Source: a virus. From it: 50,672 bases of DNA. A program made the translations under genes and the position numbers. A model generated the notes under the pieces. That model was not told the origin of the DNA and did not search any database. It worked only from the letters and a program-made list of their open reading frames with translations. Positions 5,231-37,237 of this stretch are shown here, piece by piece (position 1 is the stretch's first letter; every line of letters begins with the position of its first letter). Location: the IMG/VR virus record IMGVR_UViG_3300022851_000017, positions 1-50,672 of that record, one strand, 5' to 3'.

Positions 5231-5240
5231 AGTATTTATA
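5231..5240 (+). promoter_or_regulatory. AGTATTTATA motif, putative phage promoter
   Basis: Exact AGTATTTATA starting one base after the polymerase stop and ending 4 bases before the next ATG (5245). One of about 15 such sites; see the finding on this motif. If it is a -10 element the transcript would be nearly leaderless. Confidence 0.55.
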
Positions 5241-8546: not shown

Positions 8547-8577
8547 CCCATAGTAGTTTTCTGCTATGGGTTTTTTT
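8547..8577 (+). terminator. Intrinsic terminator
   Basis: Perfect 7-bp stem CCCATAG (8547-8553) and CTATGGG (8564-8570), 10-base loop, then seven T. An ATG inside the 3' arm (8566) opens a frame into the next gene, but a start in a terminator stem followed by a poly-Phe/Ile run is unlikely. Confidence 0.88.
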
Positions 8578-8592
8578 ATTATTATTATTATT

Positions 8593-11500
8593 ATGACTAA
8601 AATTAAAGTATCAGAATTACAGAAAATAATAAATCTTGATGAGGATATAAACAATCAAGTAAAGGTCAGAGGATTATGGGCACTCCAACCCCAATCGGTT
8701 TCTGATATGAAGGAAGACCTTACATATAATCACGTAAGTGATGCAACACAAGACGAATATACTATGGGTGGTGAATCAATCACGGAAGATTACCCAGAAT
8801 CGTTTAATCATGAAGAGTTTAAAAAATTGAATTCATATGCAGCAAGAAAAAGATATTGTGAGGAACATTTAAGTAGATTAGGTAGTGGAAGTGCAAGGAT
8901 TGTTTATGAAATTGATAATGAAACAGTATTAAAACTAGCAAAAAACAAAAAGGGATTAGCACAGAATAATGATGAGATCAATATCTCTATTAGTAATTGG
9001 CATGAAGATATTGTGACTAAGGTGCATGAGTATGATCATGATAGTTTTTGGATAAGATGTGAAAAAGCAATTAGAATAACAAAATCTAGATTTAAAGACT
9101 TAGTTGAGTATTCATTTGACGATATTGCTAGTTTTATTAATGATTATGGGTATAGAAGAAAAGGACAAAGATCACCATTTGGTCAACGAGTAACTCCTGA
9201 AATGATAGATGAATTACAGGAATTAGAGTTCATTACAGATATATTGAGTGTAGTTGATAATTGGAATATTGCAGTTGGTGATTTTGAACGCATATCATCT
9301 TATGGTGAGGTAGTAAGAAATGGTAAGTCACAAGTAGTTTTAACTGATTACGGATTAACATCAGGTACTTATAGTACACACTATACGAGGGAATTTGTGG
9401 AAAACCAAACCGATAATATTATTCTTGAAAGTGTTGAGAACATTAATCCAGACACCTCCCAACACCTTGCTAATTATGTAGCAAAAATTAATGGGTTGTC
9501 AGAACCTCAATTAATGGAGAATGGGTCTGGTGAGTGGGGTCATGCGTATAAGTCAGGTAATAAAGTAATAAAAATAACTAGTGATTCTTCGGAAGCAAAT
9601 AATAGTGAAAAAATAAAAGGTAAGAAAAACAAAAATATAGCAGATATATATGATGTTTTAAAGGTAGAAAATTTACCAAATAATGAAGATGGGGTTTATG
9701 TTATAATTTTAGAATTATTAGACACCAATCCCAATTTAGTTAAAGAAAAAATAAACAACCTAAGTGATTTCTTTAGTTCTGAAATTGGGGTTTCATTTGA
9801 TGAGGTATTTGTTTATGAAGTAGGAAGTTCAAGTTGGTCTGAAACATATGAAATAATAGAAGAAGCATTTATTGAAAAAAATGAAATTGATCTAAAAAAC
9901 TTTTTCCACTCAATATTAGATATTAATAATGAACTCAAATCAAATAATATTGATAGTATGGATTTCTTAAACTATCTAAATTTGGGTTATAAAAATGGTA
10001 ATTTAGCGTTTTTTGATTTAGGTGGTGCCAACAATACTAGCGAGAATTCAGAATCAACCACTAATTTATTGGAAAATAAACAAAAGTTTGAAAAGGAGTT
10101 TGTAAAAAAAGGATATGTTAACGATGAGGATATTAAGAACATATTAGATATCACTGGAGGTGATGAAACGACTTGGCTTGTTGCAGACGGGTACAGTAAA
10201 CTAAGGTCAATAAAACCTAATGATTGGGGTAGTGAGCGACCATATGATAAATACATTAAAGATGAACTTGTAAGATACAGTAAATTCATAAAGGACTATA
10301 AAAATACAAAAAATCTATTCCCAATAAAGGATTTTGACCCAATAAATGTTAATATGGGGAAATATGATTTTTTCGATATTAATGGTGCTCTTAAAGCTAG
10401 ACAATCTGCGATTGTAATATTCAAAAGAATACCAGAAAAATACAGAAGGAATATTAAGGGGATTTATAGAGAACCCTTAACAATGGATGAGTTTAGATAC
10501 CATGAAAATGTAGCTGGAGACAGTATAAGAACATTAAGCGCATTCTTGGGACGGGTTAGTGAAATGCAAAATGAAAAGAAAGCAACAATACTTATGAACA
10601 AAGTGTTTTCTTCAAAGAATGATACAATGAAAAAAGTATTACATCATATAGAGAATTCTAGACCTACCTATCTTAATCATGACAATGAAATGAAAGGATT
10701 CTTAGAAATGGTTGAGTATGAAGAGGAATATAACGAGGCAAAACTCCTCTATAAATCTGAGTCCGTTGTAGTTGTTGATATTAAATCTTCAGACGCAATG
10801 AAAAGTTTAGGATGTGGTTCTCAATGGTGCTTTACAACAGAAACAGGAGGATCATCTCACTGGGAAAACTATGCTGAGGATTCTCATGTTAATATGGTAA
10901 TAAATTTTGATGAAGAGCCTGATTCATATGATAGAATGGTAGTAGTTTTACCAACAGGAGGGGTTTATAACATGTATAACGAGTATATCGAAGATGGTTA
11001 TGACTATATCGAAGATTTAGGGGTTATACAATATATAAATGTTATGGAATCAGTAGAAGAAAAAATCGAAAGCAATAGAGTTCTTGACGAGTCAATTGTT
11101 TTATTGGAAAGACTTCTTTCATGGATGCCAAAGGCACAAGCGGTAAGTGTTAAAAAGGAATGTACTTTAGGCGGTAATGGTGATGGCACTTCAAAGGCAT
11201 GTAATCAAGGGGATATGGATGCGATTCGTTTGGAAGATATTAAGGATGAGAACTACAAAAAACCCAATGAACCAAATGTTGCCGAGGACGAACTCAAAGA
11301 TAGACACTACTTCAAAGGCATTGAAGGATTTATCAGTGAAGAAGTATTACCTTATTCGGACGAAGACCATGAAGAAGATGAAAATAGACTAGATAGTTAC
11401 GAGATATATGATCAAGCAATTACTATTGCAAGAGATAATAATATTCGTATAGGAAATAACAAAGAATTAGTAGGTTACATTATCGAAGGAACCGCTGTTG

Positions 11501-12729
11501 TTGGTGGGCTATTTGAATCAGTTAGTAATGAAGAGTATTCTTTTGATGTTGTGATAGATAGAAATTTCCAGAGAAAAGGATATGGAAGGGAATTGGTTGA
11601 ATATGCATTAGACCAATTTAATTATTATAAAGATATTTATGGCGATGACTTAAAACTAGACGTTTATGTGGTAAATCCAAACATGAGAGATTTACTAAAA
11701 AAATATTTCAACTTTAATGATCTCGAAAAGACTGGTGATGATAGATATAGAATGACTAAGGAAGGACTACATGAGGGACTAAATACATCGCCCCTGAACG
11801 AACTTCTAGTAAAGAATGAGTCTATACCTCCGTTTATAATTAAGGACAATAGGCTCTATTTAAATGGCATTGAGGTTGGTGATATATTTATATCACAAAA
11901 ACAGTTTGGTGATGATAAATATATGGATTTAAGTGAAATTCAAATTCATCCAGACCAAAGGGGTAATCATATTTTTACTAGATTTATGAATGCATTAGCT
12001 AAGTATACCGATAAAAATAACATAATATTATCACTTACGCCAGAAGCTAAAGAGGGTGGTGGTCTCACAACAAACCAATTAATTGATAAATATAGAAAGA
12101 TTGGGTTTGTTAGGAATACAGCATCGAACAGTGACTTCAGGGTATCTAATTCTTGGATTAGGTATCCTAAGAATAATAATATTTCCGAATCAACTAACAC
12201 AGGCAAGGTTGAGTTTGGTTGCTTAATGCTAGGTCTTAAAATTCCTATGTGGGATAAATTAATAAATAGAATAGAAGAAAATGATTTATATGACGATGGT
12301 TCAGATACATTTGGTAGAGAAGATGAAATGCATATTACTATACTTTACGGTTATCACAATAATGTTAGTGCTGACGATGTGTTTGGCGTTTTGGGAGATA
12401 TTGAAGAAAATATTTCAGTTAATGCAACAGGTATTAGTTTATTTGAGAACAAAGAAATGGGGTTTGATGTAGTAAAAATAGACATAGAACCAAGTGAAGG
12501 TTTAATAAAATTAAGAAAGTCTGCTGAAAGTGAAACACTTGATAAGACTTTAACGTATAATGATTATAATCCACATATGACAATGGCATATGTTAAGTCT
12601 GGTGAGGGTAAAAAATACGTGGTTGAATTTAAAGAACCAATTTCTTTAAATGTTAGTACTATTTACTATTCAAATAAAGATAATGAGAAAAAAATTATAC
12701 AATTAAATGGAAGCGATAAGGAATCTTAA
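8593..12729 (+). CDS. Giant multi-domain protein: kinase-like x2, GNAT x2, 2H phosphoesterase
   Basis: A 1,378-residue fusion with the organisation of phage polyvalent proteins. Residues ~97-255 look protein-kinase-like (GSGSARIVYEI, VLKLAK, later TDYGL in the DFG position). Residues ~307-480 are a second, diverged kinase-like unit (GSGEWGHAYKSGNKVIKI, later FFDLGG). Residues ~500-820 hold an unassigned domain with SLGCGSQWCFTTE. Residues ~938-1058 are a GNAT acetyltransferase with the acetyl-CoA loop QRKGYGRELVEYAL. Residues ~1078-1198 are GNAT-like (HPDQRGNHIF). Residues ~1205-1366 are a 2H phosphoesterase with HIT (His1247) and HMT (His1328). I chose 8593 because the ATG 9 codons upstream lies in a terminator hairpin. 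It overlaps the nucleotidyltransferase gene by 23 bases. It could be an injected host-modifying protein; that is inference. Confidence 0.82.
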   Translation: MTKIKVSELQKIINLDEDINNQVKVRGLWALQPQSVSDMKEDLTYNHVSDATQDEYTMGGESITEDYPESFNHEEFKKLNSYAARKRYCEEHLSRLGSGSARIVYEIDNETVLKLAKNKKGLAQNNDEINISISNWHEDIVTKVHEYDHDSFWIRCEKAIRITKSRFKDLVEYSFDDIASFINDYGYRRKGQRSPFGQRVTPEMIDELQELEFITDILSVVDNWNIAVGDFERISSYGEVVRNGKSQVVLTDYGLTSGTYSTHYTREFVENQTDNIILESVENINPDTSQHLANYVAKINGLSEPQLMENGSGEWGHAYKSGNKVIKITSDSSEANNSEKIKGKKNKNIADIYDVLKVENLPNNEDGVYVIILELLDTNPNLVKEKINNLSDFFSSEIGVSFDEVFVYEVGSSSWSETYEIIEEAFIEKNEIDLKNFFHSILDINNELKSNNIDSMDFLNYLNLGYKNGNLAFFDLGGANNTSENSESTTNLLENKQKFEKEFVKKGYVNDEDIKNILDITGGDETTWLVADGYSKLRSIKPNDWGSERPYDKYIKDELVRYSKFIKDYKNTKNLFPIKDFDPINVNMGKYDFFDINGALKARQSAIVIFKRIPEKYRRNIKGIYREPLTMDEFRYHENVAGDSIRTLSAFLGRVSEMQNEKKATILMNKVFSSKNDTMKKVLHHIENSRPTYLNHDNEMKGFLEMVEYEEEYNEAKLLYKSESVVVVDIKSSDAMKSLGCGSQWCFTTETGGSSHWENYAEDSHVNMVINFDEEPDSYDRMVVVLPTGGVYNMYNEYIEDGYDYIEDLGVIQYINVMESVEEKIESNRVLDESIVLLERLLSWMPKAQAVSVKKECTLGGNGDGTSKACNQGDMDAIRLEDIKDENYKKPNEPNVAEDELKDRHYFKGIEGFISEEVLPYSDEDHEEDENRLDSYEIYDQAITIARDNNIRIGNNKELVGYIIEGTAVVGGLFESVSNEEYSFDVVIDRNFQRKGYGRELVEYALDQFNYYKDIYGDDLKLDVYVVNPNMRDLLKKYFNFNDLEKTGDDRYRMTKEGLHEGLNTSPLNELLVKNESIPPFIIKDNRLYLNGIEVGDIFISQKQFGDDKYMDLSEIQIHPDQRGNHIFTRFMNALAKYTDKNNIILSLTPEAKEGGGLTTNQLIDKYRKIGFVRNTASNSDFRVSNSWIRYPKNNNISESTNTGKVEFGCLMLGLKIPMWDKLINRIEENDLYDDGSDTFGREDEMHITILYGYHNNVSADDVFGVLGDIEENISVNATGISLFENKEMGFDVVKIDIEPSEGLIKLRKSAESETLDKTLTYNDYNPHMTMAYVKSGEGKKYVVEFKEPISLNVSTIYYSNKDNEKKIIQLNGSDKES

Positions 12730-36494: not shown

Positions 36495-36502
36495 CCCCTT
36501 AA
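36481..36502 (-). terminator. Terminator of hsp20, shared by convergent genes
   Basis: Perfect stem TTAAGGGG (36481-36488) and CCCCTTAA (36495-36502), 6-base loop. Read leftward it is followed by a T-rich tract, so it should end the hsp20 transcript. Both the sigma stop and the hsp20 stop lie in it. Confidence 0.75.
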
Positions 36503-36641
36503 TTGATCTCAATTTTCTTAGGTTTATTTTTATTACTTACCTTCAATTGAATTGATAATATTCCGTCCCTGAGAATAACTTCATTAAGGCTATAAACGTT
36601 TTGCTTAGATTTAGCAACATACTCAGATAGGGTATTAAGAT

Positions 36642-36749
36642 TTATTGTGAACTACCCACTGACAGCAAGCTGATCAGATGGGCTTCAAGTTTCATAGACT
36701 CGCCTAATGGCAACGCCTCCACTTGTTTTTGTTTATCCTCCGATTGCAT
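36642..36749 (-). pseudogene. C-terminal remnant of tnpB
   Basis: 35 residues beginning MQSEDKQKQVEALPLGESMK and ending SVGSSQ. EALPLGESMKLEA is the common C-terminal end of IS200/IS605 TnpB proteins. The ATG is probably fortuitous because the same frame stays open for several codons upstream. The stop codon uses bases of hsp20. The rest of the nuclease is deleted, so it has no function as a protein. Confidence 0.75.
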
Positions 36750-36871
36750 CCCAAAACCAGAGTTAATTATTGCAAATATATATTAAATATAATTAATATA
36801 CAAATTACTTATTAGTAAATATTTTTTGTCGCTTACATCCCATCGACTAAAGATCGATGGGTTTTACGCTC
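36647..36871 (-). mobile_element. IS200/IS605-type mini-element (TnpB remnant, non-autonomous)
   Basis: A 225-bp element within hsp20. One end carries a perfect 8-bp hairpin (arms 36839-36846 and 36854-36861). The other carries a hairpin with a bulge (36655-36662 and 36674-36682), in a sequence typical of IS605-family ends (GTGAACTACCCA, GGGCTTCAAG). Near the latter, the minus strand still encodes a TnpB C-terminal tail including EALPLGESMKLEAH. No tnpA and no TnpB catalytic part are left, so movement would need transposase in trans. No target duplication is seen, as expected for single-strand transposition. The TnpB-derived end may hold the 3' part of an omega RNA. Confidence 0.82.
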
Positions 36872-37237
36872 CTTTTTATAAATTTATCATTTTTTATTGA
36901 ATTAAAATTCCTTATTAATGTTTCGTTCTTGTTTCTTGGTTTGGGTTCTTTTATGTTAAAAGCGATTTCGTTATTCTCTAATAAAACCTCAATATCATCT
37001 TTTTTGATACCAGCTACGTTAAAATTAATCTTTAGGTCATTATTTTCGTTTTTAATAATTTCATGATCAATTTCATGATTAGTCATTACCTCTTGAAAAA
37101 GAGAATTAAATGGGTGATTGTTTAGTATATGTCTCATAATTTTGTATTTTTACAGCATATAAGTAAAATTCATACCAATAATTATAACAAGTAATTTTAT
37201 CAGAATTTCATAAGAAATAATAATAAATAAAGACATT

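Follow-up and report, generated by a model that had tools for sequence, protein, structure and literature searches.

Short derivatives of IS605 elements without transposase, known as PATEs, have been described in Haloquadratum and Halanaerobium (PMC3119063, PMC7290912). They have palindromes near both ends, produce no target duplication and are moved in trans; the Halanaerobium PATE has in addition kept its right end in full, together with the 3' end of tnpB. ISDra2 and IS608 carry both tnpA and tnpB, have hairpin ends and are pasted as single strands 3' of a short target, TTGAT or TTAC (PMC8612924). The guide RNA of ISDra2 TnpB (reRNA), about 150 nt long, spans the 3' end of tnpB and the right end and extends about 16 nt into the flank; the cut by TnpB falls beside the transposition target, which serves as TAM (PMC8612924). 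In virulent T4-like phages, the IS200/IS605 elements ISCaje1-4 of the Campylobacter phages CP220 and CPt10 are protein-coding and mostly tnpB-only, and the sections of that report drawn on here mention no guide-RNA-only minis (PMC2853527). Finally, a TnpB gene drive of IS200/605 elements was reported for plasmids, in which the guide RNA of an element encoding its own TnpB cuts element-free copies and thereby spreads the element (PMC11870625).

The window analysed here, a stretch of 50,672 nt, resembles a fragment of a T4-like phage, with a B-family DNA polymerase, a primase, a sigma factor and a baseplate wedge protein. No end repeats are recorded for the contig, so genes absent from the window may be elsewhere in the genome. 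On the minus strand, hsp20 is interrupted by a 231-bp element which is, in its anatomy, a PATE: it is too short for a transposase and has IS605 ends. It resembles the known PATEs in its subterminal palindromes, the lack of target duplication and a probable movement in trans, and the Halanaerobium element in its retained tnpB 3' end and right end. In contrast to them, it occurs in phages as a recurrent lineage, carries a promoter-like sequence and a covarying putative guide-RNA scaffold, and, in the window copy, interrupts a phage gene. Its hairpin ends and presumed single-strand pasting 3' of a short target are shared with ISDra2 and IS608, and a reRNA from the right end with the target as TAM is predicted as well; unlike them, it has neither gene, and its target is TTTAT. 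As in the plasmid drive, we propose that element-free copies would be cut, except that here TnpB would be supplied in trans, during co-infection by phages. That an IS200/IS605 element was inserted is close to certain; the complete statement, a PATE-like insertion into hsp20 that homes by guide RNA only, appears to us evenly balanced between right and wrong.

Boundaries of the element within hsp20

The features of the interrupted gene are as follows.

36878..37137, minus: 5' part of hsp20 (86 codons + 2 nt; PF00011, 8.8e-6 alone)
36499..36646, minus: 3' part of hsp20 (148 nt; in frame once the 231 bp are removed)
36647..36877, minus: non-autonomous IS200/IS605 (PATE-type) element, 231 bp, boundaries from relatives
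36878..36882, minus: TTTAT target site and expected TAM, from family left ends
36647..36651, minus: TTCAC right cleavage site, kept across the family and seen at the L147/L101 junction

A first-pass annotation of this DNA had recognised two parts of one minus-strand Hsp20, and the profile searches bear this out. The joined protein matched Pfam HSP20 with 31.7-33.8 bits over positions 2-102 of 102 (the range reflects two boundary choices) and spanned positions 43-147 of 148 of the PHROG Hsp20 family. The first half alone scored 26.2 bits over positions 2-53 and the second half alone gave no match; the whole profile was covered by the joined protein only.

The in-frame rejoining, which had been taken as strong evidence of insertion, was confirmed: 231 bp being 77 codons, the joined frame stays open over 135 codons. 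As a proof it is weaker than claimed, since several neighbouring placements of the two breakpoints likewise leave the frame open, and the boundaries therefore had to be taken from relatives. Comparison with about 30 of them left the right edge of the proposed 225-bp insert (36647-36871) in place and moved the left edge by 6 bp. Directly after TTTAT and before the hairpin, AAAAAGGAGCG is identical in the window and in the phage contigs L002 and L031, and the sequence further left differs; as copies in different contexts have AAAAAGGAGCG in common, the element starts after TTTAT. Throughout the family, the left end consists of TTTAT, a spacer of 4-8 nt and (G)AGCGTAAAACCC; TTTAT was found in 24 of 29 elements and TTTA[CT] in 27 of 29, 4-8 nt before GAGCG/AGCG. 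The joined protein thus has 135 aa and reads ..FIINLN.., replacing the 137 residues (..FIKRINLN..) given before. The longer version was not adopted despite its higher HSP20 score (33.8 versus 31.7 bits): according to the copies in unrelated contexts, AAAAAG belongs to the element.

At the other end, the element, lying 3' of TTTAT, terminates in TTCAC, whose conservation in the family comes from a search that itself selected for TTCAC. Furthermore, a filled and an empty site could be compared: L147, with tnpA and tnpB, and L101, which joins TTTAT directly to the right flank, are 98.7% identical over 304 bp. This join is uncertain by up to six bases owing to a short repeat, 5-8 nt of the right flank recurring at the left end, and the pair fits an insertion 3' of TTTAT with no target duplication, as in the family. 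Insertion is thus demonstrated at the family level and is very likely at the hsp20 locus. In L147 and L077, the spacer between TTTAT and the left hairpin equals the start of the right flank (ACGACGAG and ATAAAC, respectively). Two of the 29 elements show this, where shuffling gives an expectation of 0.31 (p about 0.03), and it reflects either chance or conversion of the left spacer.

As it stands, the 5' frame of hsp20 enters the element and stops at 36847, giving 96 aa. Cut after residue 86, the gene has probably lost its function, except in any genomes where excision restores it. The predicted empty site is TTTAT joined to AATAAATC. Distant blastn and tblastn searches of 50,697 phage records found no close relative of the phage with an empty or intact site, a peptide-pattern scan of IMG/VR found no close relative, and the HSP20 profile, run on 28 records, found no intact hsp20 of a close relative; one distant intact hsp20 was found, in the 245-kb phage L158.

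Ends, relatives and mobility

Both ends of the element carry a subterminal hairpin with unpaired T, as in IS200/IS605.

36839..36861, minus: left-end hairpin CCCATCGA-T-CTTTAG-TCGATGGG, one unpaired T, supported by covariation
36655..36682, minus: right-end hairpin CCCA-T-CTGA-T-CAGC..GCTG-TCAG-TGGG, two unpaired T's, supported by covariation

In the alignments, 99.1% of the cells of the left hairpin were paired, with 16 both-side changes and an invariant unpaired T; for the right hairpin, the values were 97.6% and 19. By inspection, TAAA near the 5' foot of the left hairpin (36863-36866) complements TTTA of the TTTAT target, and GAA at the 5' foot of the right hairpin complements TTC of the TTCAC end; both tracts are fixed in the alignments, as expected of guide nucleotides. 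At both ends, therefore, the unpaired T's and the short foot tracts are fixed or nearly so and the stems vary in a compensatory manner.

Relatives were collected with a right-end 34-mer (which gave L002), a left-end 35-mer (L002, L031 and L032) and a gapped right-end pattern (105 stretches from viral contigs, 21 from genomes). Pattern and profile searches then served to match the two ends of each element to one another. The complete relatives, about 1.8 kb long, contain divergent tnpA (PF01797, 6.9e-35 in L086) and tnpB (PF01385, PF07282, PF12323); others, of about 1.3 kb, contain tnpB only. The Y1 transposase domain PF01797 was found between the same ends, inside the L086-, L033-, L055- and L147-type elements. 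Neither TnpA nor a TnpB nuclease domain was detected in the window or in the L002 and L032 records; the L031 contig holds one tnpB, and a tnpA fragment lies at its extreme end. As tnpA and tnpB are absent from all 50.7 kb of the window, movement needed TnpA in trans.

L002 starts inside a right end identical to that of the window (108/108 nt) and breaks off within a left end that is likewise identical (107/107 nt), as is the left end in which L031 starts (119/119 nt). Both copies sit in contexts other than hsp20. Their identity over the parts present indicates that the spread was recent, and the breaking of both contigs inside the element suggests several copies in those metagenomes. Mobilisation in trans is very probable from these identical copies. 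Thus the earlier reading of a non-autonomous IS200/IS605-type insertion with hairpins at both ends, no transposase and movement in trans holds: ends and target fit the family in hairpins, TTTAT and foot complementarity, and relatives with tnpA and tnpB exist.

Further copies illustrate the range of the lineage. L032 contains a complete copy, 79% identical, just 3' of a GOLLD RNA and a tRNA, and a motif scan revealed further insertions, several of them in phage contig 3300025839_000011, which also has copies with tnpA and tnpB. L126 simply joins 210 nt from the left of an L086-type element to 142 nt from its right. Some minis share the right flank and differ in the left flank, or the reverse (L175 around 5050, L178 around 257, L179 (reverse) around 183, L068 (reverse) around 9697), which points to either recombination among the copies of related phages or chimeric assembly.

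A virus-dedicated family, as the counts of 105 and 21 might imply, was dropped as a quantitative claim, as the collections differ and the genome of Algoriphagus resistens alone accounts for 26 BLAST matches, mostly missed by the exact pattern. In this genome (strain NH1, L033), a Bacteroidota chromosome rich in the IS family, the 26 matches are to the 231-bp element, and there are also five to the tnpA family; it is a possible source of TnpA and TnpB.

A candidate guide-RNA scaffold

The right side of the element contains more than the end needed for transposition.

36647..36766, minus: candidate reRNA/omega-RNA scaffold (tnpB 3' end + right end)
36642..36749, minus: 35-aa ORF, remnant of a TnpB C-terminus (..DKQKQVEALPLGESMKLEAH..), resembling the tails of complete TnpBs, e.g. 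DKQKRSKALPLGESMTSEAHPI in L044
36700..36713, minus: internal scaffold stem-loop TTGCC-ATTA-GGCGA, outside the transposition hairpin
36773..36804, minus: promoter-like TTTG-N20-TATATTTG, just upstream of the scaffold
36627-36646, minus: candidate guide, the first 16-20 nt of the hsp20 3' part

The TnpB tail had been noted in the first-pass annotation and is indeed present. What is new is that the mini-element appears to be more than two ends: the roughly 120 nt before the right boundary match a TnpB guide scaffold, sharing 81% identity with the 3' end of the complete tnpB element L044 over 124 nt, and the minis themselves also show compensatory changes here. The hairpin of the window copy has one base fewer than that of most relatives. 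As a result, the tnpB frame is shifted and its stop is lost, so that coding no longer constrains the scaffold. The internal stem was 100% paired in 16 sequences with 23 both-side changes, and among minis it was paired in 6/6 with five both-side cells, a small sample. Covariation of the right hairpin is no proof of an RNA role, since this hairpin is needed for DNA transposition anyway, and the compensatory changes in minis may come in part from exchange with tnpB-bearing copies.

Upstream of the scaffold, TTTG-N20-TATATTTG has what we take to be a Bacteroidota-type promoter pattern. The window contains three matches against 1.55 expected by chance, which is not significant alone; a full match also occurs in the insertion shared by L068, L069 and L182, and the pattern is degenerate in other minis. 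The predicted guide, AATAAATCTTAATACC, and the predicted TAM, TTTAT, together make up the empty hsp20 site. In sequence and structure, the locus therefore has the parts of a reRNA gene (tnpB 3' end with right-end scaffold, conserved structure, TAM equal to target), and by analogy with ISDra2 a reRNA with an hsp20 guide would be expected. We give such a guide-RNA role a probability of about one half.

The strongest alternative is that the element consists functionally of two TnpA-recognised ends, the tnpB 3' end being a functionless leftover of deletion, with the same insertion into hsp20. PATEs derived from IS605 by core deletion are already known (PMC3119063, PMC7290912), L126 has just this simple structure, and the L055 mini at 5239 has no scaffold; since TnpA mobility requires the ends only, the guide role is less secure. 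However, most minis retain about 115-140 nt at the right, where hairpin and end occupy only about 40 nt, and the internal stem, outside the transposition hairpin, still pairs through changes in minis. We put this alternative only slightly under an even chance. Two separate genes or an assembly artefact, with no insertion, are very improbable: the element is repeated between phages and assemblers break in it, as the ends of L002 and L031 show, but the two parts match a single Hsp20 that continues in frame beyond the element, and Hsp20 homology breaks at the boundaries given by the relatives. Least probable of all is a self-splicing insertion: group I introns end in G, whereas the last base of the element is C, and Rfam searches, at permissive thresholds for the element, matched no group I or group II intron there or in the relatives. 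Such an IStron or minimal intron would maintain hsp20 expression at the RNA level, in keeping with the in-frame interruption of a coding gene and with the known combination of IS elements and group I introns in IStrons (PMC4227781).

A possible homing mechanism

According to the guide-RNA reading, a host or co-infecting phage with another copy would have supplied the TnpA (Y1) that pasted the single-stranded element 3' of TTTAT in hsp20. Transcription may start at the promoter-like sequence, and the scaffold would run off the right end into hsp20, so that the reRNA guide AATAAATCTTAATACC, with TTTAT as TAM, would target the empty hsp20 site. Where excision has left an empty site, or a co-infecting phage has one, TnpB acting in trans would cut it, and the element would be copied back during repair, which would make it a guide-RNA-only homing element. 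The ends, target, complete relatives, anatomy and covariation are observed; transcription, TnpB binding and homing are inferred from the conserved anatomy.

More broadly, there may be a lineage of phage minis encoding only a TnpB guide RNA, each insertion reprogramming the guide to its own locus. With borrowed TnpA and TnpB, such minis would home into co-infecting phages with an intact site, here hsp20, as a protein-free RNA-guided gene drive; this extension is tentative and falls short of an even chance. If true, the RNA component of a TnpB (OMEGA) system can be selfish by itself, parasitising TnpA and TnpB, and RNA-guided homing would take place between co-infecting phages. The sequence predicts the guide, the TAM and the target.

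Other nucleases appear to lie between the same IS605-type ends in relatives (reverse-complement coordinates): GIY-YIG/NUMOD3 proteins (PF01541, PF07460) in L134 3174-4037 and L121 10052-11156, and an HNH/endonuclease VII-like protein (phrog_1035, 1.2e-19) in L112 7426-8368. In L134, the nuclease ORF is fused to a TnpB tail. Homing endonucleases seem to have replaced tnpB between the same ends, of which no report was found in the literature searched, and this suggests that different nucleases can fill the same retention role. In L100 (8437-10332), a 288-aa endonuclease-like ORF (DUF1064; Phage_endo_I weak) lies in an element beside 3' tnpB sequence.

GOLLD RNAs occur in phage contigs with the IS family (L032 4081-4493, L112 5582-6008), and L112 also has a tmRNA and >20 tRNAs. 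Elsewhere in the window, 8566-12729 encodes a 1387-aa ORF with a GNAT domain and a weak, below cut-off C-terminal match to 2'-5' RNA ligase/Acb1-like (anti-CBASS) proteins.
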